Of a DNA stretch of 64,000 nt, positions 7,519-46,621 are shown piece by piece (position 1 is the stretch's first letter; each line of letters opens with the position of its first letter). The position numbers and the translations under genes are program-made. Origin of the DNA: Glutamicibacter uratoxydans (GTDB lineage Bacteria; Actinomycetota; Actinomycetes; Actinomycetales; Micrococcaceae); the NCBI RefSeq assembly GCF_006539925.1, contig NZ_BJNY01000006.1, positions 1 through 64,000 on the forward strand, read 5' to 3'. The notes under the pieces are model-generated. The model did no database searches. It saw nothing but the letters and a program-made list of their open reading frames with translations, and was not told where the DNA came from.

Positions 7519-8073
7519 ATGAACAGCACTGACTTCATCCTCGCTGCGAGCGAATCGGCCAACCCGCTGGTGCCAAACCCGTGGGAAATTCTCGTCACGG
7601 GCGTTGGCTTCGCGCTCCTCTTGTTCATCGTCGTCAAGGTGATTGCTCCGAAGTTTGAGCAGTCCTACGAAGATCGCGTCACCGCGATCGAAGGTGGCTT
7701 GGAGAAGGCCGAGGCTGCGCAGAAGGAAGCAGAGGAGACCTTGGCACAGTACAAGGCCCAGCTTCTGGAAGCCCGCACCGAGGCAAACCGCATCCGCGAG
7801 GATGCTCGTAGCGAAGGTGCTCAGATCCTCGCAGATCTGAAGACCAAGGCAACCGATGAGGCTACTCGAATCACCGAGCAGGCTCAGCGTCAGATCTCGG
7901 CCGAGCGCACTGCTGCTCTGTCGTCGCTTCGCACCGACGTGGGCACCTTGGCCACCGAGCTTGCAAGCAAGATTGTTGACGAAGCTCTGAAGGACGATGC
8001 CCGTGCACAGCGCGTGGTTGATCAGTTCCTGAACGATTTGGAAGCTCAGCAGAACGCAGGTGCATCGAACTAA
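7519..8073 (+). CDS. atpF: ATP synthase Fo subunit b
   Basis: Peripheral-stalk subunit that anchors F1 to the membrane. A single N-terminal helix (residues about 25-45, ILVTGVGFALLLFIVVKVIAP) is followed by a long charged coiled coil, which begins EQSYEDRVTAIEGGLEKAEA. The ATG at 7519 sits eight bases from AAGGAA and gives 184 residues; an in-frame GTG at 7513 is an alternative too close to that site. The stop and the atpH start share one base (TAATG). The length is normal for b subunits. Confidence 0.96.
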   Translation: MNSTDFILAASESANPLVPNPWEILVTGVGFALLLFIVVKVIAPKFEQSYEDRVTAIEGGLEKAEAAQKEAEETLAQYKAQLLEARTEANRIREDARSEGAQILADLKTKATDEATRITEQAQRQISAERTAALSSLRTDVGTLATELASKIVDEALKDDARAQRVVDQFLNDLEAQQNAGASN

Positions 8074-8885
8074 TGGCAAGTGTATCGAGCGAGTCATTGG
8101 CAAAGGCTTTGGAGTTCGCTGAACCCAAGCTGGCACAGGCATCAATTGAGCTGCCGAAGGAACTGTTCGCGGTCCTGGAAGTACTGGATGCAAATGCCGG
8201 TCTCCGCCGAGCATTGACTGACCCAGCCCGTGAAGCCGCCGAGAAGGCAAGCCTGTTGGCACAGCTGTTGCGCGGAAAGGTTTCGGCAGATGCCGAGGCC
8301 ATCGTCGCCCAGCTGGCTTCCACCCGCTGGAGCTCGGAACGCGACATTAGCGATGCGCTCGAAACGCTGGCTGTCACTGCGGTGACCGCAGTGGCCGAGC
8401 AGCAGGACGGGCCTTCGGGGCTGGCCAAGCTGGAACAGGATCTGTTCTCCTTCATCGAGGTAGTTCGTGCTAACCACGAACTGCAGCGTGCGTTGGATGA
8501 TGCGCAGGCCCCAGCCGAGGCAAAGAGCGCTCTGGCGCTCAAGCTCGTGCCAAACGCGTCGAAGACCTCGCAGGCGTTGATCTCCCAGGCAGTTTCCGCC
8601 CCTCGCGGGCTGAAGCCGGTTTCCCTGGTTGAGCGCTTCGTTGAGCTGGTTGCCAAGCGGCAGCAGCGCTGGATCGCAGCGGTGACCAGCTCGGTCCAGC
8701 TTTCGCAGGCACAGCTATCGCGTCTTGAGACCAGCTTGAACAAGATCTACGGTCGCAAGCTGAAGCTCAACGCCACTACCGATCCATCGCTGGTCGGTGG
8801 CCTGGTCGTGAAGGTTGGCGACGAAGTTGTCGACGCTTCCGTGGCATCTCGTGTGGCCGAGTTGCGCCGCGCCCTGGTTGGCTAG
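8073..8885 (+). CDS. atpH: ATP synthase F1 subunit delta
   Basis: Connects the peripheral stalk to the top of the F1 head. At 270 residues it is the long actinobacterial form, about 90 residues longer than the E. coli protein, with an extra helical N-terminal region. The C-terminal family motif is visible as [35 protein letters not shown]. It overlaps atpF by one base and is followed by a 125-base gap before atpA. Confidence 0.95.
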
Positions 8886-9010
8886 GACTTTCTTCCCAGG
8901 CCCTTGAGGCTCGGGATCAAGTTCTGGCCCGCCAGGACCACCACAGACTTCATTCACATCGATTCATCGCTTTGCCGGTGGATCACAATTTAGGAGAGCA
9001 GGGACTGCAG

Positions 9011-10648
9011 ATGGCCGATTTGACCATCAACGCTGACGACGTCCGTAATGCCCTAAACGAGTTCGCATCATCCTACGAACCGGGTAAGGCATCGCGTACC
9101 GAAGTGGGTCGCGTTATCACCGCGAGCGACGGCATCGCAAAGGTGGAAGGCCTTCCTTCCGTCATGGCTAACGAGCTGCTGAAGTTCGAAGACGGCACTC
9201 TGGGCCTGGCCCAGAATCTCGACACCCGCGAAATCGGTGTCGTTGTGCTCGGCGACTTCACCGGCATCGAAGAAGGCCAGAAGGTAGAGCGCACCGGCGA
9301 GATCCTCTCGGTTCCAGTCGGCGACGCCTTCCTCGGCCGCGTGGTTGACCCGCTGGGTGAGCCACTGGACAACCTGGGCCCAATCGAGTCCGAGGGCCGC
9401 CGCGCCCTGGAACTCCAGGCACCAGGCGTAACCGAGCGCAAGTCGGTTCACGAACCGCTTCAGACCGGCATCAAGGCAATCGACGCCATGATCCCGATCG
9501 GCCGTGGCCAGCGTCAGCTGATCATTGGCGACCGCCAGACCGGCAAGACCGCAATTGCCGTCGACGCCATTCTGAACCAGAAGGCGAACTGGGCAACCGG
9601 CGACCAGACCAAGCAGGTTCGCTGCATCTACGTAGCAGTTGGCCAGAAGGCTTCGACCATCGCAGCTGTCCGCCAGACCCTTGAAGAGCAGGGCGCACTG
9701 GAGTACACCACCATCGTGGCGTCCCCAGCATCCGACCCAGCCGGCTTCAAGTACCTGGCACCATACGCAGGTTCGGCCATCGGCCAGCACTGGATGTACG
9801 GCGGCAAGCACGTTCTGATCGTGTTTGACGACCTGTCCAAGCAGGCTGAAGCCTACCGCGCCGTGTCGCTGCTGCTGCGCCGTCCGCCAGGACGCGAAGC
9901 TTACCCAGGCGACGTCTTCTACCTGCACTCCCGCCTGCTTGAGCGTTGTGCAAAGGTATCGGACGAGCTCGGTGCAGGTTCGATGACCGGTCTGCCGATC
10001 ATCGAAACCAAGGCGAACGACGTCTCGGCCTTCATTCCGACCAACGTCATCTCCATCACCGACGGCCAGATCTTCCTGCAGTCGGACCTGTTCAACGCCA
10101 ACCAGCGCCCAGCTGTCGACGTGGGTGTCTCCGTGTCCCGCGTGGGCGGTGCCGCTCAGGTCAAGGCCATGAAGAAGGTTTCCGGTACCCTGAAGCTTGA
10201 ACTGGCTCAGTACCGCGACATGCAGGCGTTCGCAATGTTCGCTTCGGACCTGGATGCAGCTTCCAAGCAGCAGCTGACCCGTGGTGCACGACTGATGGAA
10301 CTGCTCAAGCAGGGCCAGTACCAGCCGTACGCCGTCGAGGATCAGGTTGTCTCCGTGTGGGCCGGCACCAACGGCTACCTGGACGATGTTCCTGTGGAAG
10401 ACGTACTGCGCTTCGAGCGCGAGTTCATCGACTACCTGCGCCACCGCACCGAGGTTCTGACCGTTCTGGCTCAGACCGGCAAGCTGGAGGACGAGACCGT
10501 TGAAGCACTGAAGGCCGGCGTCGCCGACTTCAAGGCTGGCTTCTTCGGTCAGGGCGATGACCAGCTGGTTGCAGCCGGCCGCGAAGAGCACACAGCTCTT
10601 GACGCCGAGTCCGTTGACCAGGAACAGATCGTCAAGCAGAAGCGCTGA
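9011..10648 (+). CDS. atpA: ATP synthase F1 subunit alpha
   Basis: Non-catalytic nucleotide-binding subunit of the F1 hexamer. It has 545 residues with the P-loop GDRQTGKT at 173-180, the arginine-finger region [15 protein letters not shown], and the family signature [10 protein letters not shown]. The ATG at 9011 ([10 protein letters not shown]) is chosen because it gives the normal family N-terminus and follows AGGAGAGC; an upstream in-frame ATG at 8972 would place that Shine-Dalgarno sequence inside the gene. The C-terminus is an extended acidic tail typical of actinobacteria. Confidence 0.98.
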
Positions 10649-10658
10649 CATTTTCCAT

Positions 10659-10705
10659 AACGTTTAGGGGTACGGCGCCAGCTTTGGCGCCGCGCCCCAA
10701 ACGTT
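10659..10705 (+). other. Long hairpin between atpA and atpG
   Basis: Bases 10659-10680 pair with 10685-10705 as stems of 7, 4 and 8 bp, with one bulged base, a 2x2 internal loop and a 4-base loop. The stem is capped by CGGCGCCA/TGGCGCCG. It fills most of the 78-base gap and has no U-tract. It could attenuate transcription or set an RNA cleavage site within the operon. Confidence 0.6.
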
Positions 10706-10726
10706 GGGAATAAGGAAAGGACACAC

Positions 10727-13106
<2,380 letters not shown>

Positions 13107-13108
13107 CG

Positions 13109-13381
13109 ATGGCCGAACTTCAGGTCGAAATCGTCGCGGCCGACCACTTCGTGTGGTCGGGCGCTGCGAAGAAGCTGATCAAGGCTCGCACCGTCAACGG
13201 CGAGATCGGAGTTCTGCCCGGTCACGTTCCAACTTTGGCTGTGCTCGCCGCCGGCGATCTGGAAATCGAACCGGTTTCCGGGTCCCGCTTCACGGTTCAG
13301 ATCGACGGGGGCTTCCTCTCCGTTGATTCGGACCGCGTGGTGATCGTTGCCGACAACGCTGTGCTGGACAACGCAGCGTAG
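13109..13381 (+). CDS. atpC: ATP synthase F1 subunit epsilon
   Basis: Central-stalk subunit that couples the c-ring to gamma and can inhibit ATP hydrolysis. The 90 residues are essentially the N-terminal beta-sandwich (AELQVEIVAADHFVWSGAA, then NGEIGVLPGHVPTLAVL). The C-terminal two-helix inhibitory domain of about 45 residues found in E. coli is absent or vestigial, as is common in actinobacteria. The start is the ATG two bases after the atpD stop. Confidence 0.95.
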   Translation: MAELQVEIVAADHFVWSGAAKKLIKARTVNGEIGVLPGHVPTLAVLAAGDLEIEPVSGSRFTVQIDGGFLSVDSDRVVIVADNAVLDNAA

Positions 13382-13389
13382 GCGATGAA

Positions 13390-13818
13390 TTGATTGAGAT
13401 AACCGCACCAGTTCTTATAGCGCTGCTGGTTTTGGCCGGCATCGTGATGTTCTTTGGCGCCATGGCAGTGCGCCGCATTCAACTGCGGCGCACGCTGGGC
13501 ACCTTCGACGCCAGCATCCTCACGCCCAAGGGCAAATGGATGATGGTGATCGGCCGCTACGGCGGAGGGCATATAGACCTGTTGCGGTTTTTCTCTGTCT
13601 CGCCCATCCCACGCTTCGTCGTCGAACGTCGGGGGCTTGACATCACCGGCTGGCGCAAGCCGGACGAGCACGAAGTGCAGATGATTCCCCAGGGATTCGT
13701 CATTGTCGAACTGGTCCGCGGTGGGCAGCCGCTGTTGCTTGCCATGGACTATCAGGATTACACGGGATTCTCCTCGTGGCTTGAAGCCGGCCCGATCGCC
13801 GGATCCTGGCAGATTTAG
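13390..13818 (+). CDS. DUF2550 membrane-anchored protein
   Basis: Conserved actinobacterial protein of unknown function that always tails the atp operon (Rv1312-type). One N-terminal helix (LIALLVLAGIVMFFGAMAVRR) is followed by a soluble domain of about 110 residues rich in beta-strand signals. The start is TTG at 13390, eight bases after the atpC stop, giving 142 residues. The position suggests it is translated from the atp transcript; any role in the ATP synthase is unproven. A hairpin terminator follows. Confidence 0.85.
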   Translation: MIEITAPVLIALLVLAGIVMFFGAMAVRRIQLRRTLGTFDASILTPKGKWMMVIGRYGGGHIDLLRFFSVSPIPRFVVERRGLDITGWRKPDEHEVQMIPQGFVIVELVRGGQPLLLAMDYQDYTGFSSWLEAGPIAGSWQI

Positions 13819-13843
13819 CCGCTTCAAGCATCAGGAAACCCAA

Positions 13844-13890
13844 AAAATCCCGCTGCATCCTTCCTTGACGGGAGGAGGCAGCGGGATTTT
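13844..13890. terminator. Bidirectional terminator, end of atp operon
   Basis: AAAATCCCGCTGC (13844-13856) pairs perfectly with GCAGCGGGATTTT (13878-13890). A run of A before and T after makes it U-tract-like in both directions, fitting its place between the convergent atp operon and nagA. Confidence 0.85.
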
Positions 13891-13918
13891 GCGTTGTTCT
13901 GCCCGGTGGGCTGGCTGG

Positions 13919-15127
13919 CTAGAGCAGCTGTCCCTTGCGGAAGGTCTCAACCAGATTCAGCTGCGGATCGAGCACCAGGACATCGGCGGCGAAGCCATAG
14001 TGCAGCGAGCCGACCTCGTCGGCAAGCCCGATCAAGGACGCGGGGTTGACGGTGGCAGCGTAGATCGCCTGGACCAGCGGCACGCCGCTGGCGACGACGG
14101 TGCGCACGATGTCCAGCATCGTCGAGGTGCCGCCGGCCAGCGAGTTGTCCTTGACCAGGCGGGCCTGTCCCTGGGCCACGACGACCTCCTGCGGGCCCAG
14201 AGAGTACTGGCCGTCGGCCAGCCCAGTGGCGGCCATGGAATCGCTGACCAGGATGACCCCGCGGGCGCGGACCAGATTGAACACCAGCCGGATGGCGTCG
14301 GGGGACAGGTGCACCCCGTCGGCGATGAGTTCAAGCAGCGCGTCGTCGCGCAGGGCCATCTCCAAGCAGGCGCCCACCGGCCCGGGCTCGCGGTGGTGCA
14401 GCGACGGCATGCCGTTGAACAGGTGGGTGACGGTGGGCTTTTCGGTGAAGCCGTCGACGCCGGCGCTGCGCAGCTGCTCCCGGGCGAAGCGCAGCGAATC
14501 CGCGGTAGCTTGGAATGAGGCATTGGTATGGCCGAGCGAGGGAACGACGCCATAGGCGACGAGCTGGCTGATCAGCTCCTCGGTGCCTGCGAGCTCCGGC
14601 GCATAGGTCATGGTGCGCAGCTGTCCGCGGCTGGCCGCCATGAGCTCGTCGACGAACTCGGGCTGCGGGTCCGAAAGATAGCGCGGATCCTGGGCGCCGC
14701 AGCGGTCGTGGGACAGGAACGGCCCCTCGGCGTGGATCCCGGCGATCTGCCCGGCCTCGGCGAACTCGGCAAGGATTTCGGCTGCTTCGACCATTGCCGA
14801 GCGTTCGGCGGTGACCAGCGAGGCGAGCAGCGTCGTGGTGCCCGCGCGGTGCAGGAAGTCGATGGCCTGGCCCACCGCCTGGTGCTCGGGAGCCGCGAAG
14901 TCGGCGCCCACCGCGCCGTGGCAGTGGATGTCGATCAGCCCGGGGGTGAGGATGGCGCCTTCGGGCACCGGGTGCACCTGGAAGTCATCGGCGTCTTCCA
15001 GCAGCAGGAAGTCGTCCCGGTTGCCGGCAAAGCGGATGCGGTCCCCGTCGATGGCCAAAGCGCCGTCGGTGAGCTTGAGCCCGTCGGAGACCAGGGTGGC
15101 GAACATTACTAAGCGCGAAGCAGTCAT
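13919..15127 (-). CDS. nagA: N-acetylglucosamine-6-phosphate deacetylase
   Basis: Removes acetate from GlcNAc-6-phosphate, feeding amino sugars from wall recycling or chitin into glycolysis. This is an amidohydrolase fold of 402 residues with HXH metal ligands at H68 and H70 (DIHCHG), the metal glutamate in HAEGPFLS (E134), the histidine pair region SLGHTNAS and HLFNGM, and the catalytic aspartate in LVSDSMAATGL. It lies nine bases downstream of nucS on the same strand and may be co-transcribed. A TAAGCT box six bases before the ATG could also allow a leaderless transcript. Confidence 0.95.
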   Translation of the reverse strand: MTASRLVMFATLVSDGLKLTDGALAIDGDRIRFAGNRDDFLLLEDADDFQVHPVPEGAILTPGLIDIHCHGAVGADFAAPEHQAVGQAIDFLHRAGTTTLLASLVTAERSAMVEAAEILAEFAEAGQIAGIHAEGPFLSHDRCGAQDPRYLSDPQPEFVDELMAASRGQLRTMTYAPELAGTEELISQLVAYGVVPSLGHTNASFQATADSLRFAREQLRSAGVDGFTEKPTVTHLFNGMPSLHHREPGPVGACLEMALRDDALLELIADGVHLSPDAIRLVFNLVRARGVILVSDSMAATGLADGQYSLGPQEVVVAQGQARLVKDNSLAGGTSTMLDIVRTVVASGVPLVQAIYAATVNPASLIGLADEVGSLHYGFAADVLVLDPQLNLVETFRKGQLL

Positions 15128-41109: not shown

Positions 41110-41131
41110 TCCCGCCGCCACGCGACAAGAA

Positions 41132-41172
41132 TTCGGCCCCGCAGTTCTCGGCTCGAAAACTGCGGGGCCGAA
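41132..41172. terminator. Bidirectional terminator, rdgB and CotH genes
   Basis: TTCGGCCCCGCAGTT and AACTGCGGGGCCGAA form a perfect 15-bp stem with an 11-base loop; lies between convergent rdgB and cotH-like genes. Confidence 0.85.
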
Positions 41173-41186
41173 CTATGCACAGCCTC

Positions 41187-42833
41187 TTATGACTGGTCGG
41201 CCAGAGTCGAGGCGTTGGAAGAGGGCTCGTCCTCTTCTTCCGAGCGAGGCTGCACGCTGCCTGGCTGGCTGCTGCTGACATCTGCGGTGAAATACGCCGC
41301 GATCTTTGACGACTCGCTGGCGATGGTCTCTGCATCGACGAGGTCCACCGCTTGCTCGGTCAGCAATGTGCTCCACTTGTCCAAGATCTTTTTGGCGGTG
41401 CCGGAGTCATAGAGCTTGGTTTTCAGCTCGCTCTTGGCCTGCTCTACTTTGGCGTTGAATTCGTCATTGGCCAAGAACCGTGTGACCAGAGGATTGCTCT
41501 TGGAGCCAAAGCCGCGTCCGCCTTGGGTTTGCGCATCATCGGGCTTGGCCCCATCCTGACCGCCTGGCATCTGCGGGCGCTTGCCGTTGCCGGGGTCCAT
41601 GCCCTGGAATGTGATGTCGTTAGGCATTTTTCCTTCCACCAGCGACTTCAAGACTGTGATCAGCTGCGCGCCGCTGTTCAAAGCCATCCCTTCGGGCAGT
41701 GCGGCGCCATCGGGGAGGACGCCCTTCAAAATCTGGGTCTTGGCATCTGCAAGGTCAGCGCCATCGGGCAAAAACTGCTTCAGCAGCGAATCGCTGTCAA
41801 AATCCTGCCGGCGGCCGGGATTTTGTCCTCCATCCGGATTCTTGCCCCAGCCCATGCCTCCAAATGAGAGGTTCTGGTCCCAGGCGACCACTGTCATGGT
41901 GCCGTTGGATTGGTCATAGCGCAGGTATGAATTATTGCCGGGGCCGTCGATATCGTCGCTGTTGGAGACCAAATCCTGCATCGCCAGATAGGCGGCGAAC
42001 TGGTTGACATCCAGCTTCTGTGCCAGCTGCGAAGCGAAGTCTTCATCCGAAGAATTGTTCACAAAGTTCAAGAATTCGGCCACCGGGGTGAGAACCTCTC
42101 GGCCTGATTCGACGCTGAACGCCGATTCGTAGTCGCTACCCTGATCTCCGCGGTAGGAGTAGTCCCCGCTGGCGTCGGCTTTGTAGGTGATGCCGTCTTC
42201 GTTGAACGATTCCTGGCTGTACAGTTCGTCCGACGGATTGTCGATGACCAGCCTCAGTTGGGCGTCCTTTCCGTTGAACGTGAACCGCGTGGCTGCTGCG
42301 TGTTCGGTGGCAAGTCCTGCCTCGCCCAGCAGTTCGAGTGCCACCGCCTCATTGAGCGAGGTCTGGGAGTTATTGGTTCGCACCACAAATTGGGTGCGTC
42401 CGGAATAGCTTTGGCCTTTCACGTATTTGTCCAGTCGGATCTGCCAGGGCAGGTCCGCCGCATTGGAACTGGTATCTGCCTGTCGAAGAGTCGAATTGCC
42501 CTTCAACCTCAGACCGACATTGGTGAATTCTTTCCCGTCGATGGTGACAGTCGCGCTGACCCATTCCTTGGACTGGTCGTCTTCATAGGCCTTGAGCGCT
42601 TTCTGCACGGAATCTTCGGATACCTCGACGTTGATCTCGTGGACCTTGTCGCTGTTGAAGAAGCTTGCGGTTTCGGTGCTGACACTGGTGTTGATGACGC
42701 TGCTGCTTTGTGAATCAGGTGAAGCCGAAGCAGAGCAGCCTGCCAAGGCGAGAGCCGCAATGGACAGGGAAGCGGCCAGCATGTTGAGGCGGGAGTAGCG
42801 TCGTCCCGGACGGTCGGGGACTGGTGGGTTCAT
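41187..42833 (-). CDS. CotH kinase family lipoprotein
   Basis: 548 residues. A signal peptide with lipobox LALAGC (Cys33) marks it as a secreted lipoprotein. The CotH fold is visible: VGLRLKGNSTLR, LPWQIRLDKYVKGQSYSG, EAVALELLGEAGLA, and VVAWDQNLSFGGMGW, which corresponds to the metal-binding aspartate region. Bacillus CotH proteins phosphorylate spore-coat proteins. A Gly/Met/Asn/Pro/Gln-rich repeat region follows the kinase domain (residues about 360-460), then a C-terminal helical part. It forms an overlapping operon with the VTC gene. Confidence 0.9.
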   Translation of the reverse strand: MNPPVPDRPGRRYSRLNMLAASLSIAALALAGCSASASPDSQSSSVINTSVSTETASFFNSDKVHEINVEVSEDSVQKALKAYEDDQSKEWVSATVTIDGKEFTNVGLRLKGNSTLRQADTSSNAADLPWQIRLDKYVKGQSYSGRTQFVVRTNNSQTSLNEAVALELLGEAGLATEHAAATRFTFNGKDAQLRLVIDNPSDELYSQESFNEDGITYKADASGDYSYRGDQGSDYESAFSVESGREVLTPVAEFLNFVNNSSDEDFASQLAQKLDVNQFAAYLAMQDLVSNSDDIDGPGNNSYLRYDQSNGTMTVVAWDQNLSFGGMGWGKNPDGGQNPGRRQDFDSDSLLKQFLPDGADLADAKTQILKGVLPDGAALPEGMALNSGAQLITVLKSLVEGKMPNDITFQGMDPGNGKRPQMPGGQDGAKPDDAQTQGGRGFGSKSNPLVTRFLANDEFNAKVEQAKSELKTKLYDSGTAKKILDKWSTLLTEQAVDLVDAETIASESSKIAAYFTADVSSSQPGSVQPRSEEEDEPSSNASTLADQS

Positions 42834-43618
42834 AGCGAAGACTCCTCAGGGTGGAGGTGAAATTGGGTGGTCAGTTTGTGCTTGGTGCTGTGATGCCATC
42901 GGTTGGCCGGCAGGCTTTGATTCATCAGGCTCATGCCGGTGGCGAATTTTGAGATTCTCGATGGCCGGATGCCGTGCTGCCACAGCAGCTTGTCGGCAGG
43001 CCCTGCATGATGGGCTGACTTGGTTTCCACGATGACTTCACTGCAGCGCAGCAGTGAACCCGAGGAAGGATCGCGCCATGTCAGCTGCTCGTCGACCGTG
43101 ACGCGGCTGTTCGTTGCCGCCAGGTACAGGGTGGTCCGGGCATAGGAGGATTCGATCACCGCGCTGAGCTGGGCTAGATCGATCGGGCATGCGCCCAGGT
43201 CCGATTCCAAGGTTGAGGCAATGTAGGCCAGTGCCGCCTTGTCCAAGTCGCTGCTGCGCAGGTAGTCGTGTTCGATTCGTTCCTTGACGGTTTGGGACCG
43301 GGCGCCTTCGGTTTTGACCTCCAGATAGCACTGCAGGGAGTCCGTATAGCTGCGGGTGCGGATCTTGAAGCGCCGACGTCGGGGGTGTGCTGCCAAGTAG
43401 TAGCTGGTCAGCTGTGGGGTGTCGAAGTACATGGAGCGATAGCGGAATGACCTGAGCCCGTCGATGGCGAGGATGCGGGCCCCCGAGGCCAGCATCGGCA
43501 ACAGTCGATCTGCTTGAAGCGATGAAAGTATGTATTTCCGGTCGGTTCGGGTTTGCAGGGCAGCGGCTTCATTCAGCGCGTCCAGACTGATTGCTGCAAG
43601 GTCGGATGCCCAGGTCAT
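42830..43618 (-). CDS. VTC-domain polyphosphate polymerase
   Basis: 262 residues of the triphosphate-tunnel VTC family that makes polyphosphate from ATP in yeast vacuoles. Tunnel residues are present: R27-K28 (RTDRKYI), R59 and R61 (FRYRSMYFDT), R81-R83 and K85 (RRRRFKIRTR), E100 and K102 (YLEVKTE), R161, E198 and K200 (VIVETKS), K224. No transmembrane segment is seen, so the active site is likely cytosolic. ATGA overlaps with both neighbours. The function in bacteria is largely unproven. Confidence 0.9.
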   Translation of the reverse strand: MTWASDLAAISLDALNEAAALQTRTDRKYILSSLQADRLLPMLASGARILAIDGLRSFRYRSMYFDTPQLTSYYLAAHPRRRRFKIRTRSYTDSLQCYLEVKTEGARSQTVKERIEHDYLRSSDLDKAALAYIASTLESDLGACPIDLAQLSAVIESSYARTTLYLAATNSRVTVDEQLTWRDPSSGSLLRCSEVIVETKSAHHAGPADKLLWQHGIRPSRISKFATGMSLMNQSLPANRWHHSTKHKLTTQFHLHPEESSL

Positions 43619-44262
43619 CGGGTCTCCTGGACAAGTGCTTGAGGGCTGGGAGCTGAGAACTGTGCGGAAGTAGCAGCAGAGTTTGTCTCTATAGGCTCCG
43701 CACCGGTGACTGGGGGAGTTGCGGCTGAGAAGCGGACTCGGAGAACGGTCTTGTCATTGACCAGATCCAGCAGCTGCACCGTGTACTGGTGAATTCTTGC
43801 TCCGCCCAGTACCTGGCTCAGGTATGACTCGAGTTGTTCTTCTGTGGCAAAAGTGCGGTCAAGCACGACTTCCTGGTGGCGGTAGCGGCGGAGGACCTTT
43901 GAATTGTCGACCACCAGCATGACCACCAGGATCAGCGCAATCAGCGCCATGGCGACCCACAGGGGCGAAGGGGTCATGCCGGAAATTAGTCCAATGGCCA
44001 GGGCCGAGAAGTAGTAGGCGATTTCGTGCTGCTCAAGCTCATTTGACCTCAGTCGAATGATCGAGAGCACCCCGAACAGCCCCATGCCGAGGCCGATGCC
44101 CACGGTGCTGGAGGACAGCGCTGCGGCCACGGCAAAGACACCGATATTGATGCCGAAATAGGACACAAACAGATCCCGCCTGCGGTGCCGCGGCAGGTAC
44201 AAGCATGCTGTCAGGATGCTGATGGCGACGAGGTCGACCACAGCGAAAAGCAGGATATTCAT
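43615..44262 (-). CDS. DUF4956 membrane protein
   Basis: 215 residues; about four N-terminal helices, with GLGMGLFGVLSIIRLRSNELEQHEIAYYFSALAIGLISG, the conserved GhhRLRS-type block of the family, and a soluble C-terminal part (FATEEQLESYLSQVLGGARIH) of about 70 residues. CAAGGAA is eight bases before the ATG. First gene of the operon. DUF4956 proteins recur beside VTC and CotH proteins across bacteria and could act as the membrane channel or anchor for the polymerase. Confidence 0.9.
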   Translation of the reverse strand: MNILLFAVVDLVAISILTACLYLPRHRRRDLFVSYFGINIGVFAVAAALSSSTVGIGLGMGLFGVLSIIRLRSNELEQHEIAYYFSALAIGLISGMTPSPLWVAMALIALILVVMLVVDNSKVLRRYRHQEVVLDRTFATEEQLESYLSQVLGGARIHQYTVQLLDLVNDKTVLRVRFSAATPPVTGAEPIETNSAATSAQFSAPSPQALVQETR

Positions 44263-44532
44263 CGGATTGATTCCTTGAAAGAAAATCGGGAAGGGGGTCT
44301 TTCCAAGGCTTGTATCTGTGGCTGTGCGACAACTTTGGCATCATCTTGAAACGGCTAAGGAGCAGGTCAATATCGTAATTTTTGATTGATTGGGGTGAGG
44401 TTTCCTGTGGATGAAAATTGCAGAATCTAGCCTATTTTCAGGTTTTATCCGGGATTTAGTATGCGAATAGTTTGCACTTTCTATGAGTCGTCCCGTTGAG
44501 GGGGTTGCATGTGGCGCCACTGTGGTTCTATG
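44263..44532. other. AT-rich divergent intergenic region
   Basis: About 270 bases of notably lower GC between the DUF4956 operon (minus) and the GntR operon (plus). It holds a weak minus-strand promoter (TTGACC at 44370-44365; GATGAT at 44345-44340, 19-base spacer) and, on the plus side, the promoter and operator described next. No coding sequence or repeat was seen. Confidence 0.5.
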
Positions 44533-44534
44533 GT
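44505..44534 (+). promoter_or_regulatory. Promoter for the GntR/ABC operon
   Basis: TTGCAT (44505-44510), 18-base spacer, TATGGT (44529-44534). The -10 touches the palindromic operator, so binding there would block it. Confidence 0.5.
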
Positions 44535-44554
44535 TAGTTACATGAGTAACTAAC
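44533..44554. promoter_or_regulatory. Palindromic GntR (YtrA-type) operator
   Basis: GTTAGTTAC, four bases (ATGA), GTAACTAAC: a perfect 9-bp inverted repeat starting at the -10 region and lying 57 bases before the regulator start. Such AC/GT-rich palindromes are typical of YtrA-family GntR sites. A related half site GTTGGTAAC lies about 15 bases downstream. Confidence 0.75.
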
Positions 44555-44611
44555 CAGCTAACTAAGTGGTTGGTAACAGTTGAAATTGTCGGCAACAGAG
44601 AGGAGTCGGAA

Positions 44612-44971
44612 GTGATCGATGATTCCAAGCCGATCTTTCTGCAGATTGCCGAACTGATTGAGAACGACATCATCTCCGGCGTATTGGCCGAAGAATCGCA
44701 GGTTCCATCGACAAACGAGTTCGCAGCCTTCTATCGGATCAATCCAGCAACTGCCGCCAAGGGAATCAACAGGCTGGTTGACGAGGGGCTGCTATATAAG
44801 AAGCGGGGAATCGGGATGTTTGTGGTCCAAGGTGCACCAGAAAAATTGCGCCAGCAGCGCCGTGAACATTTCGCGAATCAGTTCATCGCCCCGCTGAAAG
44901 CCGAAGCAGCCAAGCTCGGCATCAACGAAGATGAACTGCTTGCCATGATCAAAGCCAACTCGCCGACTTAG
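44612..44971 (+). CDS. GntR-family regulator, YtrA subfamily
   Basis: 119 residues: a winged HTH (PIFLQIAELIENDIISGVL, VPSTNEFAAFYRINPATAAKGINRLVDEGLLYKKRG) and a short dimerisation helix, the YtrA layout without an effector domain. GTG 44612 sits six bases after AGGAG (44601-44605); an upstream in-frame start at 44570 has no such site. It heads an operon with an ABC ATPase and permease and probably represses it through the palindrome above. Confidence 0.93.
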   Translation: MIDDSKPIFLQIAELIENDIISGVLAEESQVPSTNEFAAFYRINPATAAKGINRLVDEGLLYKKRGIGMFVVQGAPEKLRQQRREHFANQFIAPLKAEAAKLGINEDELLAMIKANSPT

Positions 44972-45011
44972 CCATTGTGCGGCGGGTTGCAATAAACATC
45001 AGGAACGAGCC

Positions 45012-45929
45012 ATGAGTGAAGCCCCAGCAATTCTCACCCGGGCGCTGAGCAAAACTTACAAGGATGTCCGCGCCCTGGACAACGTCAACCTCGAACTTCC
45101 AGCAAACCGAATCTACGGACTGCTGGGACGCAACGGAGCCGGAAAGACGACGCTCATGTCGATTCTGACCGGGCAGAACTTCGCCACGGAGGGAGAAGCT
45201 GAGATCTTTGGCCACACACCCTTCGAACACGATCCCACCCTGTCGCGCATCTGCTTCATCCGGGAGTCGCAGAAATACCCAGATGACTTCAAAGCTTCTC
45301 AGGCATTCAAAGCAGCAGCGATCTTCTTTGAGAACTGGAATGAAGAATTGGCGCAGGATCTGGTCCGAGCGTTCAACCTGCCCGTAAAACGCAGAATTAA
45401 AAAGCTTTCCCGTGGACAGCTGTCGGCGGTCGGCGTCATCATCGGCATGGCATCGCGCGCCGAGATCACGTTCTTCGACGAACCCTATCTGGGCCTGGAC
45501 GCTGTAGCCCGGCAGATCTTCTACGACCGACTGATTGAAGATTTTGCGCAGTTCCCGCGGACCATTGTCCTGTCAAGCCATCTGATCGACGAGGTGTCCA
45601 ACCTCTTGGAGCACGTGATCGTCATCGACCAGGGGCGAATCGTCATCAACGCGGAAGCCGAAGAGCTGCAGGGAGCGGCCTTCACCGTCACCGGCAATGC
45701 GCAGAAGGTCGCTCAATTCACTGCCGGATGCAAGGTGCTGCACCGCGATGCGCTGGGCAGCCTTGCAAGTTTGACGGTCCAAGGACGGCTCAGCGATCAG
45801 CAGCGCCGCGAAGCGGCAGAGCTTGGACTGGACCTCAGCCCGGTGTCCCTGCAGCAGCTGGTCGTGCGCAGCACATTGAATGCAGCCGCCGACCAGAACG
45901 GAACCATGGAACAGGAGGCGCGCAAATGA
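45012..45929 (+). CDS. ABC transporter ATP-binding protein (YtrB-like)
   Basis: 305 residues, with Walker A GRNGAGKT (39-46), signature LSRGQ (132-136), Walker B ITFFDEP and the His switch LSSHLIDEV. The C-terminal ~80 residues form the extra domain of YtrB-type subunits. It is the second gene of the GntR operon and overlaps the permease by four bases. In Bacillus, ytr genes respond to cell-wall antibiotics; the same is only a guess here. Confidence 0.92.
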   Translation: MSEAPAILTRALSKTYKDVRALDNVNLELPANRIYGLLGRNGAGKTTLMSILTGQNFATEGEAEIFGHTPFEHDPTLSRICFIRESQKYPDDFKASQAFKAAAIFFENWNEELAQDLVRAFNLPVKRRIKKLSRGQLSAVGVIIGMASRAEITFFDEPYLGLDAVARQIFYDRLIEDFAQFPRTIVLSSHLIDEVSNLLEHVIVIDQGRIVINAEAEELQGAAFTVTGNAQKVAQFTAGCKVLHRDALGSLASLTVQGRLSDQQRREAAELGLDLSPVSLQQLVVRSTLNAAADQNGTMEQEARK

Positions 45930-46621
45930 ACCGCATCATCAAAGTTGCCCGCATGCAGCTGATCAACAAATGGACCTTCATCGGCATTCCGCTGCTGGTT
46001 CTCGCCTGCTCGTTCCTGCTCACTTTGGCCATTTGGGCGATTGTCCGCCGAGCCGGCGCAGAGGATTCGGTGTACAGCGGCGGCGCACAGGCGCCCATGT
46101 GGTACTTCCTCGCCCTGGGCATCCAGGCGCTGACGCTGACCTTCCCGTTCTCTATGGCAATGAGCGTCTCACGGCGTACGTTCTATCTGGGAACCGTGGC
46201 GCTGTTCAGCGTGTGCGCCTTGGCATTGTCGATCTTTTACTACCTGATGGGACTGGTGGAAACCGCGACCAGCGGATGGGGAGTCAACGGTCAGTTCTTT
46301 GCCCTTGGATGGGTGGCCGAAAACAACGCGGTGGTCCAGATCGCCTTCTATTGGGTGCTGATGTCCCTGCTGTTCATGCTCGGCTTCTTTTCAGCCACCC
46401 TGTATATGAGGTGGCGCACCACCGGAGTGCTGCTTTTCACCATCTCGCTGGCAGTAGTGCTGCTGGGGACAGTCGCCATCATTACCTATGGGGACCACTG
46501 GCCGGCGGTGGGGCAGTGGCTGGCGGCCTGGACTGCCGGGTCCGTGACCCTGCTGGGCGCAGGACTGGCTGTCGTGCTGGCGGGAGCTTCCTATCTGACG
46601 CTGCGCAAGGCGACAGCCTAG
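45926..46621 (+). CDS. ABC-2 type permease of the GntR operon
   Basis: 231 residues with six helices, starting MNRIIKVARMQLINKWTFIGIPLLVLACSF. ATG 45926 overlaps the ATPase stop (ATGA). Charged loops are short, so it likely dimerises to make the pore. The substrate is unknown. A very strong hairpin follows. Confidence 0.9.
   Translation: MNRIIKVARMQLINKWTFIGIPLLVLACSFLLTLAIWAIVRRAGAEDSVYSGGAQAPMWYFLALGIQALTLTFPFSMAMSVSRRTFYLGTVALFSVCALALSIFYYLMGLVETATSGWGVNGQFFALGWVAENNAVVQIAFYWVLMSLLFMLGFFSATLYMRWRTTGVLLFTISLAVVLLGTVAIITYGDHWPAVGQWLAAWTAGSVTLLGAGLAVVLAGASYLTLRKATA

Follow-up and report, generated by a model that had tools for sequence, protein, structure and literature searches.

Which system do three overlapping genes for a membrane protein, a polyphosphate polymerase-like enzyme and a kinase-like lipoprotein belong to, and which part of it is conserved? 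The genes encode a DUF4956 protein, a VTC-domain protein and a CotH-family protein, and they lie in a stretch of 64,000 nucleotides of Glutamicibacter uratoxydans (contig NZ_BJNY01000006.1, positions 1 to 64,000; hereafter the window). An earlier reading of these letters without database searches (the sequence-only reading) had described a trio that recurs in distant bacteria. The recurrence was confirmed, but the conserved unit is the DUF4956-VTC pair together with an exchangeable exported partner, of which CotH is one and Cthe_2159 the other; this unit is described here for the first time. Cthe_2159 is a beta-helix family that, according to passages of PMC6712302, binds cellulose and polygalacturonic acid.

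The whole-genome counts are free of best-match bias and cover the window's own phylum and family. Twenty of 198 phylum genomes carried both DUF4956 and VTC, none carried only one of them, and the two genes were neighbours in every case (Fisher p 8e-28, not corrected for kinship). CotH was present in 17 of the 198 genomes, 16 of these among the 20 with the pair, and Cthe_2159 (PF14262) in nine, eight of them with the pair. One partner or the other thus accompanied the pair in 20/20 genomes versus 2/178 of the others (Fisher p 2e-25, a value that kinship makes overstate independence). At 17 of 23 places in the phylum genomes, CotH and VTC were no more than 6 kb apart, and in 14 of the 20 pair genomes all three genes fell within 6 kb. 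At the family level the pair occurred in 54 of 197 genomes, with a weak DUF4956 fragment alone in one further genome that is 71% complete; CotH occurred in 18, 15 of them with the pair, and 11 of the 18 CotH places were within 6 kb of VTC, leaving 39 pair genomes without CotH in a partner count that covered CotH only. Within the genus, 11 of 12 sampled genomes carried the pair, and in the five that also had CotH it stood beside the pair every time (5/5). Three of 14 named control genomes, those of Bacteroides ihuae, Corynebacterium glutamicum, and Methanosarcina acetivorans, matched DUF4956, and the same three matched VTC, so that both families recur in distant bacteria. Corynebacterium glutamicum and Methanosarcina acetivorans also have CotH, Bacteroides ihuae has Cthe_2159, and B. 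subtilis has CotH alone.

Gene neighbourhoods were compared at 101 loci, comprising 80 contigs, 20 genome regions, and the window; the 80 contig loci were taken from the top of a score ranking of 544 confirmed relatives of the window DUF4956 and are therefore biased to Actinomycetota. CotH was found at 42 loci, Cthe_2159 at 56, both at six, and neither at nine; several of the nine lie close to a contig end, and two genomes (G108 and G147) have CotH on another contig. Most members of both partner families carry export signals. On a quick DUF4956 tree, which came with long-branch warnings, the partner changes at least seven times across the 87 of 101 rows that have exactly one partner within 5 kb, the 14 rows with both or none being left out; because of these changes, we regard partner exchange as recurrent. 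Scoring CotH as present or absent over all 101 rows gave 11 changes. A widened CotH model reached 43 loci by adding open reading frames (ORFs) suspected to be cellulose-binding modules, and the stricter set of 42 was used.

VTC was present at 99 of the 101 loci, and both exceptions (L096 and L121) come from metagenome-assembled genomes, in which DUF4956 stands without a VTC neighbour at L096:2796-3350, with CotH still beside it, and at L121:9990-10586. No fusions among DUF4956, VTC, and CotH were found in the ORFs of the 101 loci. The DUF4956/VTC order is inverted in a distant group (L034-L044), and CotH is divergent from the pair in some loci. An NAGPA phosphodiester glycosidase was found at 35 of the 101 loci and a GtrA-GT2 protein at 36, mostly upstream and typically in Arthrobacter relatives, where the order NAGPA, GtrA-GT2, DUF4956, VTC, Cthe_2159 is kept in L047, L050-L054, L056, L057, L059-L063, L065-L068, and others. 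This order suggests a lipid-linked sugar in the same pathway in these relatives. Two further frequent neighbours, clusters c7 and c12, were set aside as probable antisense ORFs over NAGPA and Cthe_2159, because they are present where NAGPA or Cthe_2159 drop from the greedy gene list and these two genes were recovered in a full ORF search. An Arthrobacter-like six-gene cluster (NAGPA, GtrA-GT2, DUF4956, VTC, Cthe_2159, and CotH) in Sporosarcina beigongshangi (L066, ~7700-14624) was either acquired by horizontal transfer or belongs to an assembly that is contaminated or carries the wrong name. The window's own genome holds a second DUF4956-VTC pair on another contig (C20, L025:3296-8088), with a DUF1307 lipoprotein gene upstream, a response regulator and a histidine kinase downstream, and neither CotH nor Cthe_2159 nearby.

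Previous studies place the same three families beside genes for the Pel polysaccharide. In passages of PMC7112168 and PMC12345266, the trio cotH-PPP-DUF4956(-DUF4832) appears as accessory genes next to pelDEADAFG in streptococci, clostridia, and bifidobacteria. Passages of PMC12345266 report that in S. intermedius deletion of the membrane gene raised Pel and deletion of cotH lowered it, and that aggregation in artificial sputum fell by over half in both mutants; they mention no change for the VTC deletion. The trio itself is thus already in print; what is new is the pair with its exchangeable partner and its Pel-independent occurrence. A polyphosphate polymerase and a CotH protein are also both named in PMC11677781. 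PelG, the sole Pel gene searched, is absent from this genome and from 20/20 pair genomes; it exceeded the cut-off in 2/198 phylum genomes and fell below it in three more, none of which has the DUF4956-VTC pair. On this evidence, the trio in the window is one of many Pel-independent cases. The trio exists without Pel genes, contrary to the statement in the 2025 paper (PMC12345266) that the arrangement was not found outside the Pel locus, and its job is therefore more general than Pel. Among open-licence papers, three mention DUF4956, and searches that combined the family names found none describing a Pel-independent trio in its own right.

The enzyme of the pair has the VTC tunnel fold of Vtc4-type polyphosphate polymerases. 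In a profile alignment, R264, R266, and E426 of yeast Vtc4 correspond to R87, R89, and E198 of the window VTC, in line with the sequence-only reading, which held all tunnel residues to be present, and they are invariant in 38/38 aligned VTC relatives. Mutation of these residues inactivates the yeast enzyme according to passages of PMC8749416 and PMC9911596. A Pfam scan of the 262-residue window enzyme found VTC only and no SPX domain. PDB searches with single sequences gave nothing significant, and profiles were needed for matches. We take the window VTC to be a Vtc4-type enzyme that likely makes polyphosphate.

The AlphaFold model of DUF4956 (mean pLDDT 84.3, pTM 0.68) contains five helices (residues 3-26, 29-51, 56-71, 78-96, and 101-118) followed by a C-terminal beta-alpha-beta-beta domain. 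Y22, R70, and R72 are invariant among 66 aligned relatives and R25 is nearly so; by the positive-inside rule, the three arginines should lie at the cytoplasmic face. Against a profile of 14 MgtC proteins, drawn from those of 30 MgtC loci with clean ORFs, hhalign gave 97.7% for a divergent DUF4956 group of nine sequences and 92.2% for the broad set of 66, each over ~190 columns, and 23.3% for the narrow actinobacterial set of 10 alone. Two DUF4956 groups compared with each other reached 98.1% over 102 columns, and the controls (reversed profiles, GtrA-GT2 proteins, and VTC) stayed at or below 1.3%. Because the profile comparisons are high and the controls low, DUF4956 is, at the level of sequence profiles, remotely related to MgtC. 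The Pfam MgtC model PF02308 was unmatched by DUF4956 at E up to 0.01, PF16316 being the sole match, and a PF02308 search of this genome gave no match. No sequence relatives of DUF4956 were found in the PDB at E up to 10, nor any full-length fold match among solved structures, where a missing match does not exclude one. The membrane protein of the streptococcal trio is called MgtC-like in passages of PMC12345266, with four membrane segments and an ACT domain; its position in the trio points to a DUF4956 protein.

CotH gave a profile match to Bacillus CotH 5JD9 (E 2.6e-32). Its D293 and D319 stand at the positions of D228 and D251 of Bacillus subtilis CotH, residues without which the kinase is inactive according to passages of PMC7821199; 26 of 27 aligned relatives retain D293, and 26 retain D319. 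The alignment draws on 27 of the 42 CotH loci, and all 27 proteins match the CotH domain PF08757; cellulose-binding or chitobiase C-terminal domains occur on some of them (CBM2 in two, CHB_HEX_C_1 in three, Fn3_assoc in three). The LAGC lipobox ending at Cys33 agrees with the lipoprotein proposed earlier. A match to an NCBIfam lipoprotein model was dismissed at 17.1 bits against a cut-off of 60. The domain previously described as rich in Gly, Met, Asn, and Gln proved richest in Gly (23 of ~129 residues), followed by Asp (13), Leu (12), Pro (11), and Gln (10); there are 6 Asn, and Met falls outside the eight most frequent residues.

We propose, with moderate confidence, a compact envelope system in which polyphosphate is made inside, leaves the cell via DUF4956, and serves at the surface together with CotH. 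VTC would polymerise phosphate from ATP on the cytoplasmic side, as its residues and fold predict. The MgtC-like DUF4956, by analogy with the membrane component of eukaryotic VTC, may hold the enzyme at the membrane and let the chain pass outward. The sequence-only reading had suggested that DUF4956 could anchor or export the VTC product; genomics establishes the pairing, and outward translocation is what we infer. Outside, the CotH lipoprotein would work on the product or together with it, and its most likely task is the modification or organisation of a surface polysaccharide or protein. This role is proposed because of the export signals, the neighbours that bind carbohydrate, and the Pel phenotypes published for relatives; in other genomes, the carbohydrate-binding Cthe_2159 replaces CotH. 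ATP is lacking outside the cell, and this together with the genomic link is the sole reason to consider that exported polyphosphate serves as phosphoryl donor of CotH as an extracellular kinase, with DUF4956 as a new MgtC-related polyphosphate channel. We think this quite doubtful, because 50 of the 101 loci have Cthe_2159 without CotH and no kinase is needed there.

The same genes could serve the interior of the cell. DUF4956-VTC might, like MgtC regulators, help to keep phosphate and ATP in balance by making or turning over intracellular polyphosphate, with CotH merely an operon-mate. The remote MgtC relationship of DUF4956 fits this, as do the two-component genes that several loci, among them the second copy of this genome, have close to the pair, but we consider it unlikely, given that an exported partner accompanies the pair in every phylum genome that has it and that 16 of these 20 already have a PPK1 domain. 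A related idea takes VTC as a phosphate or nucleotide sensor or a hydrolase that, with DUF4956, signals the phosphate state to envelope-building enzymes. Tunnel hydrolases carry ExExK; the conserved N-terminal R-x-x-x-K of the window VTC aligns with Vtc4, and this, with the invariance of the Vtc4-essential residues, makes such a role distinctly unlikely.

The remaining alternative keeps the surface and changes the product, in that the system would put phosphate directly on a lipid-linked or surface glycan (phosphoglycan synthesis) instead of making free polyphosphate. It draws on the NAGPA-type and GtrA-GT2 genes near about a third of the loci and on the CBM2, CHB_HEX_C_1, and Fn3_assoc domains of some CotH relatives. 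However, NAGPA and GtrA-GT2 were not found near the window copy or in about two thirds of the loci, and VTC resembles a polyphosphate polymerase; we judge direct glycan phosphorylation very improbable.

The three genes overlap by four bases each, as claimed before, at 43615-43618 and 42830-42833 (TCAT on the plus strand, i.e., ATGA), and all three Pfam matches exceed their curated cut-offs (Table 1). Behind CotH, the region 41126-41190 folds into a strong hairpin at -33 kcal/mol; the hairpin is absent from the list of a consensus terminator scan. The trio promoter probably sits in the intergenic region on the other side, judging by the ORF layout, and a scan of that region found no sigma-70-like match. 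The convergent gene behind the hairpin was taken by eye for rdgB, and beside the trio, at 44570-46621, lie a divergent GntR-type regulator, an ABC ATPase, and a membrane gene (by eye); the phenol-soluble modulin export models PmtR and PmtA match the regulator and the ATPase, with scores far under the cut-off. Arthrobacter sp. S41 (L045) and Glutamicibacter sp. JC586 (L046) keep the convergent and divergent flanking genes, which makes the trio look self-contained.

Table 1. Features of the DUF4956-VTC-CotH locus, in window coordinates.
Feature	Position	Strand	Basis
DUF4956 membrane protein, 215 aa	43615..44262	-	Pfam PF16316, E 3.6e-56
VTC-domain protein, 262 aa, predicted soluble, Vtc4-type polyphosphate polymerase tunnel	42830..43618	-	Pfam PF09359, E 4.2e-22
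CotH-family kinase-like lipoprotein, 548 aa	41187..42833	-	Pfam PF08757, E 1.9e-28
Lipobox LAGC, CotH residues 30-33, ends at Cys33	42735..42746	-	sequence
Gly-rich stretch of CotH, ~residues 324-452, after WDQNLSFG motif	41478..41864	-	sequence and alignment
Hairpin between CotH and convergent gene, probable terminator	41132..41172	n/a	computed fold
Intergenic region between trio and divergent GntR gene	44263..44569	n/a	ORF layout

If the pair makes and exports polyphosphate, bacteria would have their own version of eukaryotic VTC, with an MgtC-like protein as its membrane part, and a PPK-independent route to surface polyphosphate. DUF4956 would gain a function, the CotH and Cthe_2159 surface proteins would be tied to phosphate polymers, and known Pel accessory genes would be freed from Pel. 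The phosphate supply of kinases outside the cell becomes testable; were polyphosphate the donor of CotH, surface phosphorylation would be self-fuelled, solving the absence of ATP there.

Comparison with known systems sets these features in context. Glutamicibacter is not a spore former; its CotH shares the kinase core and both catalytic aspartates with the Bacillus spore coat kinase CotH (5JD9), but it is a lipoprotein, contains a Gly-rich stretch, and shares an operon with VTC. The likeness to the MgtC family (PF02308) is a profile similarity over nearly the whole length of DUF4956, C-terminal domain included; where MgtC has GFLGAG, the conserved DUF4956 motif is GLFGVLSIIRLRS, and unlike MgtC, DUF4956 almost always adjoins VTC. 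In the NELoc-2 locus of Clostridium perfringens, as given in passages of PMC2879425, VTC genes lie beside genes labelled tubulin/FtsZ, which by position would be DUF4956-like, together with a CotH gene; compared with the window, it belongs to another phylum, its pair is duplicated, and a chitin-synthase-like gene is nearby. The Pel accessory set unites the same three families in one gene set, with a secreted CotH and a membrane protein with a C-terminal ACT-like domain, whereas the window trio was found without a Pel locus. In the eukaryotic VTC complex (Vtc1/3/4), a tunnel domain with the equivalents of R264, R266, and E426 is joined to a membrane component, as in the window, but the membrane part in the window is a separate gene of another family, DUF4956.
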